This document shows, piece after piece, positions 1 to 10,565 of a stretch of DNA of 64,000 nt. Each line of letters starts with the position of its first letter. The first letter of the stretch is position 1. The stretch comes from Nonomuraea longispora (GTDB lineage: Bacteria; Actinomycetota; Actinomycetes; Streptosporangiales; Streptosporangiaceae). The position numbers and the translations under genes are program-made. The stretch is from positions 1 through 64,000 of the forward strand of contig NZ_SMJZ01000005.1 of assembly GCF_004348345.1 (NCBI RefSeq). The letters are read 5' to 3'. The notes beneath the pieces were generated by a model. It saw only the letters and a list, made by a program, of their open reading frames with translations, had not been told where the DNA came from and searched no databases.

Positions 1-612
1 TCCCTCGACGAAGCCCCAGCGCAGCCCGCGCCTGAACCACAGGCGTCGCGGCAGGACCTTCTTGCTGAACTCCTGGAACCGGTTGAACAGCCCGACGAGG
101 AAGGTGCGTACCACCGAGCCCACGCCGGCGTTGCCGCTGCGCACGTCGGTGACGTACTGGCCGAGGTCGCGGAACGGCAGGCAGGTGGGCGCCGCCCTGA
201 GCAGTTCGGTGGCCTGGCAGGAGTAGTGGTCGGCGTCCTTGCGGGTGCGGGCCAGCAGCAGCGGCAGCAGCGCCGGCTCGGGCTCGGGAGCGGCCTGCGG
301 CTCGTCCGGGTCCACCCGTCTGAGCCAGGCCTCCTTCCAGTACAGCGAGCAGGCCGTCTGGCAGCCGCCGTGCGCCTCGCCGTCGCAGCGTGCCCCGGTC
401 AGGTGGACGGCCCGTTCCATCCGGCGCATGCCGCTGCGGCTGATCGTGTCGCACAGTTTGTGCGCGACCTTGTGCACGGTCATCCGCCGGCCGCAGAAGC
501 GCGCCATCTCCGGCATGAACGGCAGGCTCTCCAGCTCACCCCGCTCGTCCAGCGTGGCGAGGATCTCGGCCTCGCTGCGCACCTCGACGAGATCGCCCAC
601 CCGCAGGTTCAC
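1..612 (-). CDS. Uncharacterised conserved Cys-containing protein of a glycan cassette (3' end missing)
   Basis: The frame starts at GTG 612, sharing GTGA with the stop of the DUF4910 gene, and stays open to the window edge, so the C-terminus is missing. The protein begins VNLRVGDLVEVRS and contains RFCGRR and KLCDT. A cluster CDGEAHGGCQTAC followed by SLYWKEAWL has three Cys and one His spaced like a metal site. From memory, proteins with this signature sit beside DUF4910, PIG-L and SDR genes in polysaccharide loci of several phyla and are annotated only as hypothetical. It is the last visible gene of a coupled cassette. Function is unknown; a metal- or Fe-S-containing enzyme is only a guess. 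Confidence 0.75.
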   Translation of the reverse strand, partial: MNLRVGDLVEVRSEAEILATLDERGELESLPFMPEMARFCGRRMTVHKVAHKLCDTISRSGMRRMERAVHLTGARCDGEAHGGCQTACSLYWKEAWLRRVDPDEPQAAPEPEPALLPLLLARTRKDADHYSCQATELLRAAPTCLPFRDLGQYVTDVRSGNAGVGSVVRTFLVGLFNRFQEFSKKVLPRRLWFRRGLRWGFVEG

Positions 613-1874
613 GCGCCCTCCCTCTTCAGCAGCCCCGCCGCCTCCAGCGCCTGCGCCGCTTCCGCCACCGCGCGGAAGGGCAGGCCGGACCGGTCGGCGA
701 CGTCCAGCAGGCAGTGCGCGCCGTCCGACAGGTTCAGCACCCACAACATCGCCATCTGGGCCTGTTTCGTGTCACTCCGGCCGCCGATCGATCCGTACAG
801 GCCGCGCCGGCCCAGCTGCGGCTCGCCGTACGGGCTGAGGTTCAGGTAGCGGCCGTCGCCCTCCAGCACCTCCACCGCCGACCACAGCGCCTCCAGCGTG
901 TCGGCCATGGACTCCGGCGAGACGAGGTCCAGGTCGTCGCCCGAGGTGTGGTATTCGGGGTAGCCGGCGTACGGCGTCCTGGTGAGGCTGCCAACGGGCA
1001 GGTCGAAGCCGGGCGAGCAGTACTGGCGCTCGTCGTAGCCGTACGGTGAGAAGTCCGTGATCGTGTGCGGCCGTTCCCGCAGCACGTGCGCCATCACCCG
1101 GTCGATGCCGGCGTCCCCGCGCCTGCTGCGCTTGTAGGTCAGCGGGCCGCGGTCGCCGGCGCAGGCCAGTGTGAGGCCGTGCCTGATCCTGGAGACGCGC
1201 TCGCGGTTGCGCGCCAGCCACGTGATGGCCCCGATCGTGCCGGGCGCGAACACGAAGCGGTAGGTCAGGCGCGGCCGCTCCAGCCGGGAGGCCAGCGCGG
1301 TCGCCACGGCGAGCCCGGCGAGGTTGTCGTTGGCCAGCGACGGGTGGCACGTGTGGCACGAGATGAGCACCTCGTCCGTCGTCCGTCCGCGTACGACGTG
1401 CTCGGCGTACGTCAGGTGACCGTCGGCCAGCGTCGAGTCGATCACTACCTTGTACGGCCCCTCGCCGAGGCCGTCGAGCGTGCTCTGACTGAGGCAGAAC
1501 CCCCACGTCTCGGCGTAGTAGGCGGTCCGGTAGGGGACCAGGCCGGGCCGCTCGGGCAGCGTGTGCAGGTGGGGCCGCAGCTCCGCCAGCGTCATCGTGG
1601 CCGACACGGGGACGCTGTAGCCGACGACGTGCAGATTGGAGCGCCGGAAGTCGACGACCCTCGCGCCGTCCGCGTCCATGACGTAGGCGTCGCGGACGTT
1701 CCACTCCTTGGGGACCGCCCAGTCGAGCACCTGCGTGCCCGTCGGCACCTCGTGCACGTCCAGGTCGAGGTGTTCGGCGAGGATGCCGAGCGTGGCGCGC
1801 ACCCCGTCGCCCGTGATGGAGCGGCACAGCGGGTAGAGCCGCGCCACCAGGGCGTGCATCTCCTCTCCCGTCAC
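609..1874 (-). CDS. DUF4910 family M28-like zinc aminopeptidase/hydrolase
   Basis: About 421 aa. The start RLYPLCRSITGDGVR is typical of DUF4910 proteins, which combine an M28-like metallohydrolase fold with a C-terminal winged helix. Zinc-site residues are visible in SCHTCHPSLANDNLAG and in EYHTSGDDLD near the C-terminus. The tail (residues ~350-420) looks like the helix-turn-helix module. Start: GTG 1874 overlaps the upstream SDR stop as GTGA, matching the coupling seen across the cassette; ATG 1859 with GGGAG in front is an alternative. Family members are common in O-antigen and polysaccharide clusters, but the substrate is not known. It may act on an amide-linked sugar or a glycan precursor (inference). 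Confidence 0.85.
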   Translation of the reverse strand: MTGEEMHALVARLYPLCRSITGDGVRATLGILAEHLDLDVHEVPTGTQVLDWAVPKEWNVRDAYVMDADGARVVDFRRSNLHVVGYSVPVSATMTLAELRPHLHTLPERPGLVPYRTAYYAETWGFCLSQSTLDGLGEGPYKVVIDSTLADGHLTYAEHVVRGRTTDEVLISCHTCHPSLANDNLAGLAVATALASRLERPRLTYRFVFAPGTIGAITWLARNRERVSRIRHGLTLACAGDRGPLTYKRSRRGDAGIDRVMAHVLRERPHTITDFSPYGYDERQYCSPGFDLPVGSLTRTPYAGYPEYHTSGDDLDLVSPESMADTLEALWSAVEVLEGDGRYLNLSPYGEPQLGRRGLYGSIGGRSDTKQAQMAMLWVLNLSDGAHCLLDVADRSGLPFRAVAEAAQALEAAGLLKREGA

Positions 1875-2890
1875 GGCCTCAGCTCCGCGGTGACCGTGCC
1901 GCTCGACCGCCGCTCGGCCAGCCAGGCGAGCCTGGTGAACCGCTCGCGGAAGTCGGCCTGCGTCAGGCCGTAGGTCCGGTAGGCCTCGGCCAGTTCGACC
2001 GCGCCCGCCTTCACCGTCCAGCGGGCGTGGAAACCCGGCAGCGCCTGCCTGATCCGCGAGAAGTCCACCCGATACGAGCGCGGGTCGGCCCCGGTCTCGC
2101 CCGTGATGAGCAGCCGCGATCCCGGCACCGCCTCCACGACGTGCCCGGCGATGCCGGCGACGGTGAGGTTGTTCTGCTCGCCGCCGACGTTGAACGCCCT
2201 GGCGTGCACGGCCTCGCGTGGCGCGTCGAGCATGGCGGCGAAGGCGTCGGCGATGTCGGCCACGTGCACCAGCGGCCGCCACGGGGTGCCGTCGGACAAC
2301 ACGCGCACCTCGCCGGTCAGGTGGGCGTGGCCGACGAGGTTGTTGAGCACGATGTCGGCCCGCAGCCGCGGCGAGAACCCGAACGCGGTCGCGTTGCGCA
2401 GGAGCACGGGTGTGAAGTCGTCGTCGGCCAGCTCCAGCAGCTCGTCCTCGACCCGCACCTTCGACTCCGCGTACGGGGTCACGGGCCGCAGCGGGGCGTC
2501 CTCGCCGAGCAGGTCGTCCCCACCGGAGGCGCCGTACACCGAGCAGGTGGAGGCGTACAGGAAACGGCGCACGCCGACGTCGCGGGCGAGCCTGGCCAGG
2601 CGTACGGAGGCGTGGTGGTTGATGGAGTAGGTCAGCTCGGGCGAGAGCGCGCCGAGCGGGTCGTTGGAGAGCGCGGCCAGGTGGATGACCGCGTCGACGC
2701 CTTCGAGCAGTTCCGCGCGTACGTCTCGCAGGTCGGCGCGGTGGCCCGGCGGGTCGGCGGGCGGGGGACCGAGCACGCAGCCGGCGAACAACCCGGAGTC
2801 CAGGCCCGTCACGTCGTGACCGGCCGTGGCCAGCCGCCCGGCCATGACGGTGCCGAGGTAGCCCTGGTGCCCGGTGAGCAGGACACGCAT
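1871..2890 (-). CDS. NAD-dependent epimerase/dehydratase (extended SDR)
   Basis: 339 aa extended short-chain dehydrogenase. The Rossmann motif GHQGYLG lies at residues 7-13, with STCSVYG and the catalytic YAESK (Tyr-x3-Lys) in the expected order. It probably epimerises, dehydrates or reduces a nucleotide sugar in the cytoplasm. The PIG-L gene lies 6 bp upstream, and the stop overlaps the GTG of the DUF4910 gene. The substrate cannot be read from sequence. If the neighbouring cytidylyltransferase makes CDP-glucose, this SDR is the only candidate in view for a dehydratase or reductase of that branch. Confidence 0.9.
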   Translation of the reverse strand: MRVLLTGHQGYLGTVMAGRLATAGHDVTGLDSGLFAGCVLGPPPADPPGHRADLRDVRAELLEGVDAVIHLAALSNDPLGALSPELTYSINHHASVRLARLARDVGVRRFLYASTCSVYGASGGDDLLGEDAPLRPVTPYAESKVRVEDELLELADDDFTPVLLRNATAFGFSPRLRADIVLNNLVGHAHLTGEVRVLSDGTPWRPLVHVADIADAFAAMLDAPREAVHARAFNVGGEQNNLTVAGIAGHVVEAVPGSRLLITGETGADPRSYRVDFSRIRQALPGFHARWTVKAGAVELAEAYRTYGLTQADFRERFTRLAWLAERRSSGTVTAELRP

Positions 2891-2896
2891 GTCGTT

Positions 2897-3547
2897 TCAG
2901 CCTCCAGCTAGGTCGAGCGAGATCTTGTCGAGGTAGAAGGCCTCGGCGTAGCGTGCGTGACACTGAACGCCGCGGACCCTGGCGAGACCGAGGAACGCCT
3001 CCCTGTCGAACCAGGTGCGCCGGCGTTGTGACGGGTAGTGCTCCCACAGCAGGGCGACCTTGCGTTCGGCGAGCGCGAGGTCGAGCGGCTGGTACGCGTG
3101 GGCGCGGCCGAGATCGCCGTCCCATTTGAGGATCTCGTAGCCGAGCGTGAGGTGGTCTCGGAAGGCGGTGGGCACCAGCCGGGCCAGGCCCCTGTGGTCC
3201 TGGTGGGCGTCGCCGGCGTGGGGCGCGAGGATCAGGTCGGGTTCGGTGCGCAGACGCAGCTCCTCGACCGCCGTCTTGGCTTCGTCCCAGTGGGCGGGCA
3301 GCCGTCCGTCGGGCACCTTGGCCACCGTGATCCGCAGGTCGGCGCCGGGGCAGAAGGCGGCGAGCGCCCTGCGCTCCTCGCGCTCGCGATCGGTGCCGCC
3401 GCCCGACAACACCAGGACGTCGACCTGCACGCCGGGGTGGGAGGTGCAGACGGCGAGCAGGGTGCCGCCCGCGCCGATGGCGATGTCGTCGCAGTGGGCG
3501 GCGAGCGCGGCGATCCTGCGCAGTCCGGTGGGGATGAGCCGTTTCAT
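2897..3547 (-). CDS. PIG-L family deacetylase
   Basis: 216 aa. The N-terminal AHCDD (residues 17-21) is a variant of the canonical AHPDD motif, and APHAGDAHQDH supplies the second metal-binding cluster (H-x2-D-x-H-x-DH). These Zn-dependent enzymes remove N-acetyl groups from GlcNAc-type substrates (MshB, LmbE, teicoplanin deacetylases). Start ATG 3547 overlaps the cytidylyltransferase stop as ATGA, so the two are translationally coupled. The context suggests deacetylation of an amino sugar or of a sugar attached to a carrier. The Pro-to-Cys change beside the metal ligands is unusual, but all ligands are present. Confidence 0.88.
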   Translation of the reverse strand: MKRLIPTGLRRIAALAAHCDDIAIGAGGTLLAVCTSHPGVQVDVLVLSGGGTDREREERRALAAFCPGADLRITVAKVPDGRLPAHWDEAKTAVEELRLRTEPDLILAPHAGDAHQDHRGLARLVPTAFRDHLTLGYEILKWDGDLGRAHAYQPLDLALAERKVALLWEHYPSQRRRTWFDREAFLGLARVRGVQCHARYAEAFYLDKISLDLAGG

Positions 3548-4323
3548 GCTGTGCGCTCCCACAACGCCCACGGGCGGTCGCCACGCGAGTAGGCGCGGTC
3601 GAGCTCCAGCCGCTGGTTGACGGTGTCGGTGGGCCGCCAGTAGCCGCGGTACGGGTAGGCGAGCAGCCGTCCGCGTTTGGCCAGCTCCCTGCACCCGTCG
3701 ACGAGCAGGTCACCGTTCTCGGGGATGTGGTCGAAGACCTCCTGCCGTAACACGAAATATCCGCCGTTGACCCAGAGCGGCATTTCGGTGACCGCGGTGA
3801 TCTGGTCCACCAACCCGTCCGGCGTGATCCCGACGCAGTGGAAGGTGCCCGGCGGCGGCACGGCCATCAGCGAGCCGCCCGCGTCCGACCTGGCGAACCT
3901 GTCGATGATCTCCGGCAGCGGCGCATCCGTGAGCACGTCCGCGTAGTTCGCCAGGAACATCTCGTCGCCGTCGAGGTGGTCGCGCACCCGGCGCAGCCGC
4001 TCGCCGATCGACGACTCGATCCCGGTGTGCACGAAGGAGACCGTCCAGTCGGAGATGTCGTTGCCCAGCAGCACGATGTCGCCGCCGCGCAGCACGAAGT
4101 CGTTGGACGCGGTCTCCTCGTACGTCAGGAAGAAGCTCTTGATGTGCTCGGCGCCGTACCCCAGGCAGAGCACGAACTCCTTGTGACCGAAGTGCGCGTA
4201 GTAGCGCATGACGTGCCAGAGCAGCGGCCTCGGACCGACGAGCTGCATGGGCTTGGGCACGTCGCCCGGCGCCCCGGTGCGCATGCGGGTGCCGTATCCG
4301 CCGCAGAAGAGGACGACCTTCAC
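3544..4323 (-). CDS. Glucose-1-phosphate cytidylyltransferase-like nucleotidyltransferase
   Basis: 259 aa. FCGGYGTRMR at residues 7-16 is the nucleotide-binding loop of sugar-1-phosphate nucleotidyltransferases, followed by GDVPKPM. The sequence resembles RfbF-type cytidylyltransferases, which activate glucose-1-P with CTP to give CDP-glucose. The methyltransferase upstream ends at 4320, so stop and start overlap (ATGA). No CDP-glucose 4,6-dehydratase (RfbG) is visible, so the CDP-sugar route is either completed elsewhere or the enzyme uses another substrate. The family call is firm; the nucleotide preference is inferred. Confidence 0.85.
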   Translation of the reverse strand: MKVVLFCGGYGTRMRTGAPGDVPKPMQLVGPRPLLWHVMRYYAHFGHKEFVLCLGYGAEHIKSFFLTYEETASNDFVLRGGDIVLLGNDISDWTVSFVHTGIESSIGERLRRVRDHLDGDEMFLANYADVLTDAPLPEIIDRFARSDAGGSLMAVPPPGTFHCVGITPDGLVDQITAVTEMPLWVNGGYFVLRQEVFDHIPENGDLLVDGCRELAKRGRLLAYPYRGYWRPTDTVNQRLELDRAYSRGDRPWALWERTA

Positions 4324-5531
4324 ACGACCTCCAACGTGGGGATGGGGAAGACCAGCCGGCCACCCCAGTCATGGACGTACGACAGCTGCTCGACCAGCTC
4401 CTCGCGCAGGTTCCACGGCAGGACGAGCACATAGTCCGGCCGGTCCGCGGCGATCCGGCCGGTCGGGAGGATCGGGATGCGGGCGCCGGGCGTGAACCTG
4501 CCGTGCTTGTACGGGTTGCGGTCCACCGTGTACGCGAGCAGGTCCGGCCGTACGCCGCAGTGGTTGAGCAGCGTGTTGCCCTTGCCGGGAGCGCCGTACC
4601 CGACCACGGTCCGGCCCGATTCGGCGGCGTCTATGAGGAAGCGCAGCAGGTCACGCCGGACCCTGGCCACCCGCCCCGCGAACTCGGCGTAGCCGGAGAC
4701 CTCGTGCAGCCCGGCCGCCTTCTCCAGGGCCAGGACGTCGGCCACCCGCGGCGACGGCGCACTCCCGTACTCCGAGGGCCTGGCCCACAGGCGGATGGAG
4801 CCGCCGTGGGTCTCCAGCAGTTCGACGTCCACCACCGCCAGGCCGCCGCTCGCCAGCGCCCGCCGCGCCGACGCGACGGTGTAGTACTGGAAGTGCTCGT
4901 GGTAGATCGTGTCGTACTGGTTGCGCTCGATCAGCGTGAGCAGGTGCTGCACCTCGACGGAGACCATGCCGTCGTCGGCGACCAGCGTGCGCAGCCCCTC
5001 GGTGAAGCCGATCACGTCGGGGATGTGCGCGTAGACGTTGTTGGCCACGACGAGGTCCGCGCGCCCGTGCTCCCGCACGATCGCCCGCGCGCTCTCCGGC
5101 GTGAGGAACGCCGTCACCGTCGGCACGCCGCGCTCCCTGGCCGCCGCGCCGACGTTCACCGACGGCTCGACGCCGAGGCAGCGCACACCCCGCTCGACCA
5201 CGTGGCGGAGCAGGTAGCCGTCGTTGCTGGCCACCTCCACCACGAAGGAGCCCGGCTTCAGGTCGAGCCCCGCGACGAAGGCCCTGGCGTGCTCCACCCA
5301 CGAGGTGGAGTAGGAGGAGAAGTAGGCGTAGTCGGTGAAGGTCTCCTCGGGGGAGATCAGCGGCGGGATCTGCGCCAGCCAGCACGACGTGCACACGCGC
5401 AGCCGCAGCGGATAGGTGACCTCCGGCTCGTCGAGCTGACCGGCGGTGAGGACGCGTTCGCAGGGGGGCGTCGCCCCCAGGTCCACGACACCGGTCATGT
5501 CGGTGGAGCCGCATAAACGGCAAGGTGTCAT
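4320..5531 (-). CDS. Deoxysugar C-methyltransferase (NovU/TylCIII-type)
   Basis: 403 aa with the three-part layout of sugar C-methyltransferases: an N-terminal zinc-binding segment (CRLCGSTD and VCTSC), a central SAM-binding Rossmann domain (VEVASNDGYLLR), and a C-terminal domain with GYGAPGKGNTLL. The family (EvaC, NovU, TylCIII) methylates C-3 of dTDP-4-keto-deoxysugars, giving branched sugars. It is the first gene of the coupled cassette, divergent from rfbC across only 44 bp. Its presence suggests that the 4-keto intermediate made by RfbB is diverted in part to a C-methylated sugar (inference). Confidence 0.88.
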   Translation of the reverse strand: MTPCRLCGSTDMTGVVDLGATPPCERVLTAGQLDEPEVTYPLRLRVCTSCWLAQIPPLISPEETFTDYAYFSSYSTSWVEHARAFVAGLDLKPGSFVVEVASNDGYLLRHVVERGVRCLGVEPSVNVGAAARERGVPTVTAFLTPESARAIVREHGRADLVVANNVYAHIPDVIGFTEGLRTLVADDGMVSVEVQHLLTLIERNQYDTIYHEHFQYYTVASARRALASGGLAVVDVELLETHGGSIRLWARPSEYGSAPSPRVADVLALEKAAGLHEVSGYAEFAGRVARVRRDLLRFLIDAAESGRTVVGYGAPGKGNTLLNHCGVRPDLLAYTVDRNPYKHGRFTPGARIPILPTGRIAADRPDYVLVLPWNLREELVEQLSYVHDWGGRLVFPIPTLEVV

Positions 5532-5575
5532 TCGTACGCTCCGATGGCGGATTTCTCGTTGGTACTGTGCGGGCC
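5532..5575. promoter_or_regulatory. 44-bp divergent promoter region, rfbC / C-methyltransferase
   Basis: The two starts (5531 minus, 5576 plus) are separated by 44 bp, so their promoters must overlap. On the plus strand TACTGT (5563-5568) lies seven bases before the ATG of rfbC, the geometry of a -10 box for leaderless transcription. No good -35 was found on either side and the minus-strand promoter is not clear. Confidence 0.4.
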
Positions 5576-6154
5576 ATGGATCCCCTCGGCATCGACGGAG
5601 CGTGGGTGCACACGCCGCGCGTCCACACCGACTCCCGTGGATCGTTCCTCGAGGCGTTCCGCGCGTCCGGCCTGCCGCGGCGCTTCGACGTCGCCCAGGT
5701 CAACTGCTCGGTGTCCGGCCGCGGGGTGCTGCGGGGTGTGCACTTCGCCGACGTGCCGCCCGGCCAGGCGAAGTACGTGATGTGCGTGTCGGGCAGCGTC
5801 CTCGACGTGGTCGTCGACCTGCGGACCGGATCGCCCTCGTTCGGCCGCTGGGAGGCGCGCACGCTCGACGACCGCACACGCCGCGGCATGCTGATCGCCG
5901 AAGGGCTCGGGCACGCGTTCATGGCGCTGAGCGAGCAGGCCACGGTGGTCTACCTGTGCTCGCAGCCGTACGCGCCCGGCCGCGAGCACGGGGTTCACCC
6001 GCTCGACCCGGCCCTCGCCATCGCCTGGCCGGCCGGCGTCGAGCCCGTGCTGTCCGACAAGGACGCCAAGGCGCCCTCGCTCGACGAGGCACTCGCGGGC
6101 GGGCTGCTGCCGGATCACCGCGCGTGCCGGGAGTTCTACGCCACGCTGCATTGA
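5576..6154 (+). CDS. rfbC: dTDP-4-dehydrorhamnose 3,5-epimerase
   Basis: 192 aa cupin-fold epimerase of the RmlC family. LRGVHF carries the likely catalytic His56; the family segment around PYAPGREHG and LDPALAIAW follows near residues 131-151. It inverts C-3 and C-5 of dTDP-4-keto-6-deoxyglucose. The ATG at 5576 is preferred over an in-frame upstream extension because family proteins begin here and a -10-like TACTGT sits seven bases upstream. It is the only plus-strand gene of the sugar cluster, and its 3' end overlaps that of rfbD by 19 bp (convergent). Confidence 0.93.
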   Translation: MDPLGIDGAWVHTPRVHTDSRGSFLEAFRASGLPRRFDVAQVNCSVSGRGVLRGVHFADVPPGQAKYVMCVSGSVLDVVVDLRTGSPSFGRWEARTLDDRTRRGMLIAEGLGHAFMALSEQATVVYLCSQPYAPGREHGVHPLDPALAIAWPAGVEPVLSDKDAKAPSLDEALAGGLLPDHRACREFYATLH

Positions 6155-6993
6155 GGCCCCGCATTCGCGGCGATGACCGGCCAGGCCGCGTGCAGCGCCG
6201 CCCGCCAGTGGCGCAGCGGCTCGGCTTTCGTGCAGGCGAGCACGCTGCTGGCCGGGCGCCGAGCGGGCCGGGGCCAGGCGGTGCCGGCGACCGGCCGCAC
6301 CCTCCCGGGGTCCGCGCCGAGCAGCGTGAAGACCTCCTTGGCCAGGCCGTACCACGTCGTCTCGCCCGAGCAGACGCCGTGGTAGACGCCCGGCGGCAGG
6401 TCCGACCGGGCCAGCCGTACGAGGAAGTCGGCCAGGTCGGCGGCCCACGTCGGCTGCCCGCGCTGGTCGTCGACCACGTCCACGAACGGGCGCTCACCGG
6501 CCAGCCTGATCATGGTCCGGACGAAGTCGGCGCCGGTCGCGCCGTACAACCACGCGGTCCGTACGACGTAGTGGCCGTGCTCCAGCGCCGCGCGCTCCCC
6601 CGCCAGCTTCGTGCGCCCGTAGGCGTTGACCGGCCCGGTGGGCGCGTCCTCCCGGTACGCCGCCGCGCTCGCGCCGTCGAAGACGTAGTCGGTCGAGACG
6701 TGCACCAGCCGCGCCCCGATCAGGTCGCACGCCTCGGCCAGCCAGCGCACCGCGTGCCCGTTGATCGCCAGCGCCTCCGCCTCACGCGACTCGGCCTCGT
6801 CCACGGCGGTCCAGGCGGCGCAGTTGATCACCGCGTGGGGCCGGTAGGCGCACACGAAGTCGCGTACCGCGCGCCGGTCGCGCAGGTCGAGCTCGCTGCG
6901 GGCGAGCGCGAGCACCGGGTCGCCGGTCAGCGCCGTACGGTCGAGCACGTCGGTGGCGAGCATGCCGCCCGCGCCCGTGATGAGCCATCTCAT
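6136..6993 (-). CDS. rfbD: dTDP-4-dehydrorhamnose reductase
   Basis: 285 aa SDR of the RmlD family: GAGGMLA at residues 7-13, STDYVF at 100-105 and Tyr125-x3-Lys129 (YGRTK). It reduces the 4-keto group of the RmlC product to give dTDP-L-rhamnose or a related 6-deoxyhexose. It lies 11 bp downstream of rfbB in a minus-strand rfbA-rfbB-rfbD run. The last 19 bases overlap the 3' end of rfbC on the other strand. Confidence 0.93.
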   Translation of the reverse strand: MRWLITGAGGMLATDVLDRTALTGDPVLALARSELDLRDRRAVRDFVCAYRPHAVINCAAWTAVDEAESREAEALAINGHAVRWLAEACDLIGARLVHVSTDYVFDGASAAAYREDAPTGPVNAYGRTKLAGERAALEHGHYVVRTAWLYGATGADFVRTMIRLAGERPFVDVVDDQRGQPTWAADLADFLVRLARSDLPPGVYHGVCSGETTWYGLAKEVFTLLGADPGRVRPVAGTAWPRPARRPASSVLACTKAEPLRHWRAALHAAWPVIAANAGPQCSVA

Positions 6994-7004
6994 GGCGCCT
7001 CCCG

Positions 7005-7928
7005 TCAGGCCGTCCACCAGCCGCGGTGTTCGGCGTACCAGCGCACGGTGTCCTTCAGCCCTTGCTCGAACGTGATCTCCGGCCGGTAGCCCAGGGCGCG
7101 CAGCTTCGTGTCGTCGAGGGAGTACCGGCGATCGTGGCCCTTGCGGTCCTCGACGTACTCGACCAGGTCCCAGCCCCGGCCGCAGGCCTCCAGCAGGAGG
7201 CCGGTCAGCTCCAGGTTGCTCAGTTCGGCCGTGCCCGCGATGTGGTAGACCTCGCCGGGCCAGCCCTTCTCCATGACCAGCCGGATGCCGGCGCAGTGGT
7301 CCTGGACGTGGATCCAGTCGCGCACGTTGCCGCCGTCGCCGTAGAGCGGGACGGTCGCGCCGCGCAGCAGCCGCGTGACGAACAGCGGGATGATCTTCTC
7401 GGGATACTGGCGGGGGCCGTAGTTGTTGCCGCAGCGGGTGATGGAGACGTCCAGTCCGTACGTCGTCGCGTAGGAGAGGGCGATCAGGTCGGCGCTCGCC
7501 TTGGAGGCCGCGTACGGCGAACGCGGCGCCGGCGGTGCGTCCTCGGCCCAGGAGCCCGACTCGATCGTGCCGTACACCTCGTCGGTCGACACCTGCACCA
7601 CCTTCGCCACCCCGGCCTCCAGGCAGGCCTGCAGCAGCGTCTGCGTGCCCAGCACGTTGGTGCGCACGAACTCGGCCGCCTCCACGATCGACCGGTCCAC
7701 GTGGGACTCTGCGGCGAAGTTGACCACCACGTCGTGACCGGGCACGACCTCGGACAGCAGGCGGGCGTCGCACACGTCGCCGTGCACGAACGTGTGCCGC
7801 GCCCCGTCGAGGTTGGCTCGGCTTCCTGCGTAGGTGAGCTTGTCCAGCACCGTCACGTCCGCGGCGTCGAGGCCGTGCACGAAGTGGGAGCCGATGAACC
7901 CCGCGCCGCCCGTCACCAGAATTCTCAT
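7005..7928 (-). CDS. rfbB: dTDP-glucose 4,6-dehydratase
   Basis: 307 aa. GGAGFIG at residues 7-13, STDEVYG at 114-120 and YAASK (Tyr139/Lys143) are the signatures of RmlB, and the STDE motif carries the acid/base pair of the dehydratase. It converts dTDP-glucose to dTDP-4-keto-6-deoxyglucose, the branch point for rhamnose and for C-methylated or amino deoxysugars. ATG 7928 overlaps the rfbA stop (ATGA), so the two are translationally coupled. Confidence 0.95.
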   Translation of the reverse strand: MRILVTGGAGFIGSHFVHGLDAADVTVLDKLTYAGSRANLDGARHTFVHGDVCDARLLSEVVPGHDVVVNFAAESHVDRSIVEAAEFVRTNVLGTQTLLQACLEAGVAKVVQVSTDEVYGTIESGSWAEDAPPAPRSPYAASKASADLIALSYATTYGLDVSITRCGNNYGPRQYPEKIIPLFVTRLLRGATVPLYGDGGNVRDWIHVQDHCAGIRLVMEKGWPGEVYHIAGTAELSNLELTGLLLEACGRGWDLVEYVEDRKGHDRRYSLDDTKLRALGYRPEITFEQGLKDTVRWYAEHRGWWTA

Positions 7929-8992
7929 GAGTGGATCTGCACCTTGCTGTGATCGCCCAGCACGAGGCGGTGGGCTCGGGGGGTGTGGGGCGCGGGGGTG
8001 ACCTCGACGTCGTGGCCGATCAGCGACCACTCGATCCGGCCCACCCCGGCGATGGAGGCCCTGGGCAACACGATCGAGTATTCGATCTCGCTGCCGGTGA
8101 CCGTGCAGGACGCGCCGATGGAGGTGAACGGGCCGACGTAGCTGTCGCTGATACGTGCGCCGGCACCGATGATCACCGGGCCGACCAACCGCGAACGTTC
8201 GACGACCGCGCCCGGCTCGACCACGACCCGGCCCACGAGGTCGCTGGCCACGTCGACGTGCCCGCTCACGCGCGGCTCCACCGACTCCAGGACCAGCCGG
8301 TTGACCTCCAGCATGTCGGTCACGTCGCCGGTGTCCTTCCAGTAGCCGGTGATCATGGAGGACTCGACGCGCAGCCCCGCCTCGATCAGCCACTGGATGG
8401 CGTCGGTGATCTCCAGCTCGCCCCGCCACGACGGCTTCAACTCCGCCACCGCCGCGTGCACGGCCGGGCTGAACAGGTAGACGCCGACCAGCGCCAGGTC
8501 GCTCTTCGGCCGCGCCGGCTTCTCCTCCAGGCCGATGACCCGTCCCTCGGAGTCCAGCTCGGCCACGCCGAACTGGCGCGGGTCGGCGACCTCGGTGAGC
8601 ATGATCTGGGCGGCGGGCCGCTCCCGGGCGAACCGGGCCACCAGGTCGGTGATGCCGCCCACGATGAAGTTGTCGCCCAGGTACATGACGAAGTCGTCGT
8701 CGCCCAGGAAGTCGCGGGCGATGAGCACGCCGTGGGCGAGCCCGAGTGGCGCCTCCTGCCGCAGGTACGTCACCTGCAGCCCGAACGCCGAGCCGTCGCC
8801 CACGGCCGCCTCGATCTCGGCCTGGGTGTCGCCGACCACCATGCCGAGCTCGGTGACGCCCGCCGCCGCGATCGCCTCCAGGCCGTAGAACAGGACCGGT
8901 TTGCCGGCCACCGGCACGAGTTGCTTGGCCGAGGTGTGCGTGATGGGCCGCAGCCGTGTGCCCGACCCTCCGGCGAGCACGAGTGCTTTCAC
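7925..8992 (-). CDS. rfbA: Glucose-1-phosphate thymidylyltransferase, long form
   Basis: 355 aa, starting VKALVLAGGSGTRLRP at GTG 8992. The N-terminal nucleotidyltransferase domain carries GGSGTRLRPIT and the substrate loop SAKQLVPV. The C-terminal ~110 residues form a left-handed beta-helix-type tail, as in the longer StrD-like enzymes of antibiotic and glycan clusters rather than the ~290 aa RmlA form. It makes dTDP-glucose from dTTP and glucose-1-P. The stop of the upstream transferase is two bases before the GTG. Confidence 0.92.
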   Translation of the reverse strand: MKALVLAGGSGTRLRPITHTSAKQLVPVAGKPVLFYGLEAIAAAGVTELGMVVGDTQAEIEAAVGDGSAFGLQVTYLRQEAPLGLAHGVLIARDFLGDDDFVMYLGDNFIVGGITDLVARFARERPAAQIMLTEVADPRQFGVAELDSEGRVIGLEEKPARPKSDLALVGVYLFSPAVHAAVAELKPSWRGELEITDAIQWLIEAGLRVESSMITGYWKDTGDVTDMLEVNRLVLESVEPRVSGHVDVASDLVGRVVVEPGAVVERSRLVGPVIIGAGARISDSYVGPFTSIGASCTVTGSEIEYSIVLPRASIAGVGRIEWSLIGHDVEVTPAPHTPRAHRLVLGDHSKVQIHS

Positions 8993-8994
8993 TG

Positions 8995-10449
8995 CTAGTA
9001 AGCCCCTTCTCCACGGGTCACGACGGACCAGGTCTTCCAGAGAATCTGCAGGTCGAGGATGAGCGACCAATTCTCCACATAGCGCAGGTCGAGGCGTACG
9101 GACTCCTCCCACGTCAGGTCGGAGCGGCCGCTGACCTGCCAGAGCCCGGTCATGCCCGGTCTGACGACCAGGCGGCGGCGGACGTCGGCGCCGTACTTGC
9201 CCACCTCTTCGGGCAGCGGCGGGCGGGGGCCGACGAGGGACATCTCGCCGCGGATGACGTTGAGCAGCTGGGGCAGCTCGTCGAGCGAGTATTTGCGCAG
9301 GAAGGCGCCTACGCGGGTGATCCTTGGATCGTTCCTAATCTTGAAGAGCACCCCGTCGAACTCGTTCGCGTCGAGTAGGTCGCGCTTGCGCTGCTCCGCA
9401 TCAACCACCATCGTACGAAATTTCACGACGCGGAATTCTTTGCCGCCTTTGCCGACCCTGACCTGGAAGAACAGCGCCGGCCCCGGGCTCGTCAGCCGGA
9501 TCACCATCGCGATCCCCAGCAGCGGCAGGGCGAGCAGCAGCAGCGCGGTCCCCGCCACGAGCCGGTCGAACACGGTCTTGACGAGCTGCTTCGTGCCGTC
9601 GAACTCCGGATGCTCCACGTGCAGCAGCGGCATCCCCGCCACCGGCCTGATGCTGATGCGCGGCCCCGCCACGTCGAGCAGCGCGGGCGCGACGAACAGA
9701 TCGGTACGCGCGGTCTCCAGGCTCCAGGCCAGCCGGCGCAGCGCCGCTCCGTCCAGCTCCGGGCAGGCCAGCACGGCCACGGCGTCGGCCTTCTCCCGCT
9801 CCACCGCGTTCGCCACGTCGTCGAACGACCCCAGCACGGGGACACCGTCCAGGTCGACGTCCCTGCCGCCCTCGGGAAGGCAGGCTCCCACCACCCGCAT
9901 CCCGTGGTAGGGCTGGCGCCTGAACTGCATCACCAGGTCGAGAATCGACTCCCGGTGCCCGACCGCGACCACCTGGCGCATGTAGTCGCCCACCGCTCTT
10001 CTCCGGTGAAGACGTTTGCGCATGCGATAGCGGAAATAGAGGGTGGCGAGCAGCGCCAGCGGCAACATCGCCATGACGAAACTGCGGGCGATCGTGGTCT
10101 GCGTCGCGTAGGCCATGATGGCGACCGTGGCCATCAGCCCGGCGCCGCCGTTGAAGACCGCCTTGAACTCCTCGGTGCCCTCGCCGTTGGCGCGCTGGCG
10201 GTAGGCGCCGCCCATCATGAGCGCGATCGGCCAGGCGACCACGAGGCCGAATCCCAGCAGATATTCGGCCGGCGGTACGTACACGCCGGCGACGAGCCGG
10301 ACACCCAGCACGCAGACGCACGCGAGCAGCACGCACACCATGTCGCCGGACAACAGAAGCCGCAGGTACGCCCGCGTCCAGATGCTGGACGCACGGCGCG
10401 GCACGGCCTCGAGGAGCACGACAGCGGACTCCCCAGTCCCCACCCTCAT
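8995..10449 (-). CDS. Polyprenyl-phosphate glycosyl-1-phosphate transferase (exopolysaccharide priming enzyme)
   Basis: 484 aa membrane protein of the WbaP/CpsE type. The N-terminal half has several hydrophobic helices (RLLLSGDMVCVLL, YLLGFGLVVAWPI and others) and a CoA-binding-like middle domain. A further hydrophobic segment precedes the catalytic bacterial sugar transferase domain with KFRTM, DELPQLLNV, MSLVGPRPP and PGMTGLWQVSGR. It moves a sugar-1-phosphate onto undecaprenyl phosphate, starting glycan assembly at the inner leaflet. Start ATG 10449 has a GGGTGG-like ribosome site; an in-frame ATG at 10509 is possible. It heads the rfbA-B-D run, so the sugar nucleotides are probably made for this glycan. 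Confidence 0.92.
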   Translation of the reverse strand: MRVGTGESAVVLLEAVPRRASSIWTRAYLRLLLSGDMVCVLLACVCVLGVRLVAGVYVPPAEYLLGFGLVVAWPIALMMGGAYRQRANGEGTEEFKAVFNGGAGLMATVAIMAYATQTTIARSFVMAMLPLALLATLYFRYRMRKRLHRRRAVGDYMRQVVAVGHRESILDLVMQFRRQPYHGMRVVGACLPEGGRDVDLDGVPVLGSFDDVANAVEREKADAVAVLACPELDGAALRRLAWSLETARTDLFVAPALLDVAGPRISIRPVAGMPLLHVEHPEFDGTKQLVKTVFDRLVAGTALLLLALPLLGIAMVIRLTSPGPALFFQVRVGKGGKEFRVVKFRTMVVDAEQRKRDLLDANEFDGVLFKIRNDPRITRVGAFLRKYSLDELPQLLNVIRGEMSLVGPRPPLPEEVGKYGADVRRRLVVRPGMTGLWQVSGRSDLTWEESVRLDLRYVENWSLILDLQILWKTWSVVTRGEGAY

Positions 10450-10565
10450 AGCACCACCCGATACTCGATGCACCGTTCCCTTGCATGGGTTGGCAAGTCC
10501 CACGAACATTCAAGGGCGGCGGCCCCCACTAAAGATTAAAGATCAATTCGAGAAGGGGGAATAAC

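Follow-up and report, generated by a model that had tools for sequence, protein, structure and literature searches.

The DUF4910 proteins were tied to sugar-gene neighborhoods, and to a possible role in making a modified carbohydrate, by Das et al. 2014 (PMC4000134), who reported that the catalytic residues of M28 peptidases are replaced in this family and argued that its members are not peptidases. The neighborhoods of the CA_C2195 type described there, which hold an epimerase/dehydratase, a nucleotidyltransferase and a methylase, resemble a cassette of six genes in Nonomuraea longispora that is the subject of this report. The cassette lies at the start of a 64,000-nucleotide stretch of DNA (contig NZ_SMJZ01000005.1, positions 1 to 64,000), which we call the window. 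The locus of Table 2 in PMC4000134 is of the nonulosonate type, whereas the DUF4910 protein of the window belongs to a separate group on the tree, in the company of a C-methyltransferase (MT), a cytidylyltransferase (CT), an SDR and an RfbC-like protein. The system has been partly known since 2014, through the link of DUF4910 to sugar synthesis. New here are a CT subfamily linked to PIG-L, two patterns of gene exchange, and a Cys-containing protein (HGGC) predicted to consist of tandem SH3-like repeats and tied to export and assembly; in the main text of PMC4000134 we found nothing on PIG-L, the altered CT, HGGC or the exchange with a second methyltransferase-like protein (MT2). The account we favor, with some confidence but well short of certainty, is that five of the genes and a nearby RfbC-like epimerase form a module for one unusual nucleotide-activated sugar of a Wzx/Wzy surface polysaccharide, and that HGGC is an adaptor for export and assembly.

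All six genes are co-directional on the minus strand, running from 5531 to beyond position 1 (<1):

4320..5531, minus strand: MT, C-methyltransferase, Methyltransf_13 (Zn)-23-14, TylC3/TcaB9-like
3544..4323, minus strand: CT, RfbF-like cytidylyltransferase from the subfamily coupled to PIG-L, its sugar-phosphate pocket altered (TIGR02623, 1tzf)
2897..3547, minus strand: PIG-L family zinc N-deacetylase, BshB1-like (PF02585; BshB structure 6p2t)
1871..2890, minus strand: SDR, extended NAD-dependent sugar-nucleotide oxidoreductase/epimerase (PF01370, 6vo6)
609..1874, minus strand: DUF4910/DUF2172/HTH_47 protein, M28-like fold with one zinc site (PF16254, 3k9t)
1..612, minus strand: HGGC protein, N-terminal 204 of about 320 residues, truncated where the contig stops; no Pfam family

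The first-pass annotation, made from the window alone, had described six co-directional genes joined mostly by 4-bp ATGA/GTGA overlaps. All are present, and four of the five junctions overlap: MT/CT (GTGA, 4320-4323), CT/PIG-L (ATGA, 3544-3547), SDR/DUF4910 (GTGA, 1871-1874) and DUF4910/HGGC (GTGA, 609-612). The sole junction without an overlap is PIG-L/SDR, with a gap of 6 bp. HGGC ends at 204 residues because base 1 of the window is also base 1 of contig C421. The missing C-terminal part opens another contig of this genome, C440 (L032), where it is followed by Wzx, again with a 4-bp overlap, and then by GT2. A close relative (G003) carries HGGC intact as one protein of about 322 amino acids, and judging from it we infer that the assembly gap between C421 and C440 swallows about ten HGGC codons.

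The family survey covered 151 genomes, from which 20 loci were fetched. HGGC is found in 39 of the genomes and DUF4910 in 37, and every genome with DUF4910 also has HGGC (Fisher p 3e-33 over the 151 genomes, relatedness ignored). CT homologues at E 1e-60 or better occur in 46/151. The order MT-CT-PIG-L-SDR-DUF4910-HGGC-Wzx-GT2, with the overlaps, is kept in 19 of the 20 loci; the exception, L052, has all eight genes, but shuffled. A scan of species genomes returned 283 HGGC relatives. The best 80 of these were examined, giving 72 loci of useful length, and they are nearly all from Actinomycetota, including Nonomuraea, Streptosporangium, Kutzneria, Lentzea, Rhodococcus, Nocardia and Mycolicibacterium. 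The species are related, so that the counts in these wider loci are not of independent events. The five sugar genes are found in 62-64 of the 72, and the cassette order with overlaps is kept in about 60; 4-bp overlaps are seen at MT/CT in 59/61, CT/PIG-L in 52/63 and SDR/DUF4910 in 48/58. Because order and overlaps are held to this extent in both samples, the cassette is conserved beyond chance. The first-pass annotation had proposed one coupled unit with one likely product, and had named homologues rarely found together, or overlaps not conserved in relatives, as grounds for doubting it. The neighborhood analysis gives clearly the opposite result on both points, and the proposal is supported.

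The cassette CT falls among the NTP transferases of Pfam and matches RfbF (1tzf, E 9e-41), but scores 180 bits against the TIGR02623 equivalog, below its cut-off of 300.25. The EKP and RFG motifs are parts of the sugar-1-phosphate pocket of the RfbF family. In an alignment referred to the 1tzf sequence, the PIG-L-coupled CTs, from three phyla, share with RfbF (1tzf/1wvc) the fold family and, mostly, the nucleotide-binding motifs GGxG[TM]R and PKP and the active-site Asp. Unlike RfbF, every one of them lacks EKP and reads [TS][FY]H where RfbF reads RFG. Apart from an unrelated NTP transferase (L175), the only CTs that retain EKP are those of L164, L170 and L176, loci without a coupled PIG-L. 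Because EKP and RFG are lost, the acceptor of the coupled CT is probably different from that of RfbF. The two CT types are interleaved on the tree of DUF4910 proteins, in strongly supported sister pairs (L168/L170 and L143/L176), from which it follows that the activation module is exchangeable while MT, SDR, RfbC and DUF4910 stay constant. Most simply, RfbF would supply CDP-glucose, and the coupled CT with PIG-L would supply a CDP-linked hexosamine. L176:8556-12614 (Paroceanicella) holds a minimal rfbF-rfbC-DUF4910-MT run in which the RfbF is canonical and PIG-L is absent, a compact setting in which to test DUF4910.

The DUF4910 protein of the window covers the full PF16254 domain (E 9e-110, 366 bits against a gathering cut-off of 26.6) and is matched in Pfam by DUF4910, DUF2172 and HTH_47. 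It aligns end to end with CA_C2195 (3k9t, E 5e-140). The single-zinc ligands of 3k9t, His189, Asp195 and His324, all have counterparts; both His are kept in 123/123 homologues and the Asp in 106/123. That Asp (Asp183 in the window protein) is Asn in 12/123 and Glu in 5/123, and going by these substitutions the site may bind metal differently among homologues. The M28 catalytic Asp and Glu are not present, Ser and Pro standing in their place. The first-pass annotation had called this a peptidase-like enzyme; the window protein has the same replacements that PMC4000134 reports, and that description is not supported. DUF4910 also occurs outside the cassette set, in nonulosonate-type loci of Tritonibacter, Agrobacterium salinitolerans, Maritalea and the archaeon Halorussus, whose proteins form a separate group on the tree. 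The loci of this second group (L146, L179, L142, L147) are for pseudaminic or other nonulosonic acids; two of them include an AAC(3)-type acetyltransferase, and one is from a haloarchaeon.

The second exchange involves DUF4910 itself. Among loci with the MT-CT-PIG-L triad, 101 have DUF4910 and no MT2, and ten lack DUF4910, nine of which have MT2 (Fisher 2e-12, relatedness ignored). In the tenth, L192, the contig ends inside a fragment resembling the MT2 N-terminus. Nine of these ten genomes are from the surveyed family, and DUF4910 is missing from the whole of each; the other is a Rhodococcus (L102). MT2 has the Pfam domains of MT, but in nearly all copies the SNDG of the SAM loop is lost and YHEH has become RHGH; this protein may act on sugars without methylating them. 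Examples are:

L195:6597-7673, L196:12425-13516, L188:11788-12900, L102:5334-6404 and others: MT2, only in triad loci without DUF4910

DUF4910 occurs without PIG-L in L170 and L176, and PIG-L without DUF4910 in the ten loci above, so the two are separable in either direction and are not one amide-processing pair. The first-pass annotation had suggested that they process an amide- or N-acyl-sugar. The pairing does not hold up, while an N-acyl sugar is plausible from PIG-L alone, whose zinc and catalytic motifs AHxDD and HQDH are unchanged in 107/107. PIG-L scores 53.5 bits against PF02585 (E 4e-14, cut-off 28.2). It has the AHxDD and HxDH motifs of BshB1/MshB, but at about 52 bits against a BshB1 cut-off of 182.5 it is not an ortholog.

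The best PDB match to MT is the D-mycarose 3-C-methyltransferase 4rv9 (E 5e-84). MT has the features of the TylC3 type, namely the three-part architecture also seen in TcaB9, the zinc cysteines, the SAM loop, YHEH and the Methyltransf_14 domain, and YHEH and the SAM loop are retained in 110/111 homologues. TylC3 and TcaB9 act on dTDP sugars. The substrate of MT, unlike theirs, is probably carried on CDP. The SDR matches the Pfam Epimerase family (PF01370, E 1e-46), keeps STCSxYG and YxxxK, and is nearest among solved structures to 6vo6, a sugar-nucleotide SDR.

HGGC has no significant match by sequence of its lead protein to PDB or Pfam. AlphaFold2 predicts a tandem repeat joined by a helical linker, with pLDDT 92 when the full protein is modelled and 87 when repeat 1 is. 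The top structural match of each repeat is to the SH3-like REP repeats of Mind bomb (4tse, 4xi6, 4xi7; PF18346), with Z of 7.3-7.6; Foldseek E values of 0.03-0.09 and Z below 8 indicate a likeness of fold only. Twenty-two of 51 members match PF18346 (SH3_15) weakly, the best at E 6e-5, the lead member scoring 15.5 bits, below the gathering cut-off of 24. Unlike the Mind bomb repeats, HGGC is bacterial and has an added cysteine cluster. Nine Cys (40, 54, 76, 84, 88, 132, 254, 290, 298) are retained in 50-51 of the 51 aligned members, which include two rhizobial proteins at 40-44% identity, and three of the nine recur at equivalent sites in both repeats. The H of the HGGC motif is not invariant. 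A nitrile-hydratase-like or other metal enzyme was considered and rejected, since nitrile hydratase beta tops the Foldseek list, yet with root-mean-square deviations of 8-14 A and a low TM score, and the Mind bomb repeats fit better.

The distribution of HGGC differs from that of the sugar genes. It is absent from nine of ten tested cassette genomes outside the lineages that have it, and in most loci with HGGC and no cassette it adjoins GT2 and/or Wzx; in Bosea it adjoins only a lipopolysaccharide-biosynthesis protein. The first-pass annotation had placed the Cys protein in the core pathway and suggested looking in its predicted structure for a metal or Fe-S site. The gene's distribution speaks against the first, and structure searches with the predicted fold found SH3-like repeats and no resemblance to an Fe-S enzyme. 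Our reading, at low to moderate confidence, is that HGGC serves as an adaptor on the assembly side, its metal sites being structural, and is not a sugar enzyme. Two HGGC genes of another genome, on G313:C4 and G313:C5, lie away from its cassette contig. An HGGC gene of actinobacterial type (66% identity) is on a 3.2-kb contig (L107) of a metagenome-assembled genome labelled Bacteroidetes SZAS-11, a contig that is probably mis-binned.

Farther along C440 are a Wzy_C protein, an RfbC-like epimerase and additional glycosyltransferases, and on the other side of the cassette the window continues with a divergent RmlC-like gene:

L032:7454-8002 (C440): RfbC-like gene of the cassette type
5525..6154, plus strand: RmlC-like gene, divergent from the cassette, adjoining rmlD/rmlB/rmlA

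By the open reading frames, window positions 6136-10509 complete the dTDP-rhamnose set beside the cassette (rmlD, rmlB, rmlA) and add an initiating sugar transferase. The RmlC-like gene was considered as the cassette epimerase and set aside, as it is grouped with rmlD/B/A and the C440 copy is nearer to the cassette-type RfbC; given its neighbors it probably serves dTDP-rhamnose. The cassette, the C440 genes, the rml genes and the initiating sugar transferase make up a Wzx/Wzy-type polysaccharide locus.

In the module that we propose, the coupled CT would transfer CMP from CTP onto an N-acylated hexosamine-1-phosphate, most simply N-acetylglucosamine-1-phosphate (GlcNAc-1-P), and not onto glucose-1-phosphate. 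PIG-L would remove the N-acyl group, the SDR would oxidize or reduce C4, the RfbC-like protein would epimerize beside the keto group, and MT would add a C-methyl from S-adenosylmethionine (SAM), probably at C3. DUF4910 would perform a single-zinc, non-peptidase tailoring step, in the slot that MT2 takes in other loci. HGGC, with its two predicted Cys-rich SH3-like repeats, would be a cytosolic adaptor whose partners are the adjacent Wzx flippase and GT2. The most likely product is one CDP-linked, C-methylated sugar or amino sugar. We infer the substrates, the order of the steps, the steps after activation and the roles of DUF4910 and HGGC from the gene set, its order and coupling, the catalytic motifs, the altered CT pocket motifs, the exchange patterns and the predicted HGGC fold. 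A narrower version is possible but doubtful. It has the CT and PIG-L making a CDP-amine, such as CDP-glucosamine from GlcNAc-1-P, from which MT, SDR, RfbC-like protein and DUF4910 build a C-methyl-branched sugar in a new CDP-amino-sugar pathway, DUF4910 being a new sugar-nucleotide enzyme on a peptidase fold.

That similar sets recur in distant phyla, as stated in the first-pass annotation, is borne out. The set of MT-CT-PIG-L, SDR-DUF4910 and RfbC-like genes is found without HGGC in Streptomyces (L055, L156-158, L161), Shinella, Sinorhizobium NGR234, Agrobacterium, Neorhizobium, Ochrobactrum, Qingshengfaniella and Roseateles, and in L166-L168, from the phylum of a metagenome-assembled genome labelled Bacteroidetes (G151). 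The MT-CT-PIG-L overlaps are preserved in most of these loci, and a GSA-aminomutase-like class-III aminotransferase often accompanies the set. We considered whether HGGC and this gene exclude one another, as the 20-kb loci suggested, and rejected it: in two HGGC genomes the region that holds HGGC also holds the aminotransferase, at a distance of about 20 kb, and a third (G022, L197) also breaks the rule. For Brucella, the gene table of PMC1413539 has the same run (BMEII0827-0834), of cytidylyltransferase, methyltransferase, RfbC-like, conserved hypothetical, epimerase and aminomutase genes, and B. abortus has lost a region around it by deletion (PMC2453230). Beyond Das et al. 2014 and that gene table, literature searches on the cassette, on CDP-GlcNAc and on CDP sugars with C-branches returned nothing relevant. 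In rhizobia the MT-CT-PIG-L triad and the SDR-DUF4910 pair form separate blocks. Together with the triads that lack DUF4910, this could mean that the genes are only loosely co-inherited, in one polysaccharide locus making two or more sugars, for instance one by the triad and another by the pair. We regard that as unlikely, since in Actinomycetota the two blocks adjoin one another and are coupled by overlaps, and the full set occurs in several phyla.

Several points weigh against the single-sugar module with its HGGC adaptor. None of the six proteins has a known substrate or product. Many cassettes include the GSA-aminomutase-like aminotransferase, so the product may vary among them, and the N. 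longispora genome has no close homologue of that gene. It also has no CDP-glucose 4,6-dehydratase (TIGR02622) above cut-off, so a 4-keto intermediate for the TylC3-like MT must come via the SDR or another route, and we rejected the classical route from CDP-glucose to CDP-4-keto-6-deoxyglucose on that ground. L164 has a canonical CT with a PIG-L gene nearby, which makes the link between altered CT and PIG-L imperfect. Finally, the loss of EKP could alternatively mean a non-sugar acceptor. The capsule phosphoramidate pathway of Campylobacter is a precedent for cytidylyl activation of a non-sugar phosphate, and the cassette would then add a CDP-derived non-sugar group to the polysaccharide. The loss of EKP and RFG from a CT that mostly keeps its nucleotide-binding motifs and active-site Asp fits this, as do two amide-hydrolase-like proteins close by. 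However, the company of an MT, an SDR and an RfbC-like protein is typical of nucleotide sugars and is also found with canonical RfbF (L170, L176), and we consider a non-sugar acceptor improbable. Also improbable is one pathway of six genes in which DUF4910 and PIG-L jointly act on an amide- or N-acyl-sugar, with the Cys protein as a further, metal-dependent enzyme. In its favor are the strictly kept order and coupling of the six genes in Actinomycetota, an intact PIG-L and nine near-invariant Cys, but DUF4910 and PIG-L each occur without the other, HGGC is missing from most cassette genomes outside its lineages and sits beside GT2/Wzx where there is no cassette, and its predicted fold is SH3-like.

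The cassette spans several phyla, from soil actinomycetes to rhizobia and Bacteroidota and, by annotation, Brucella. The CT subfamily and the two exchanges, of the coupled CT and PIG-L for RfbF and of DUF4910 for MT2, sharpen the 2014 proposal into predictions for each enzyme, open to assay in vitro.

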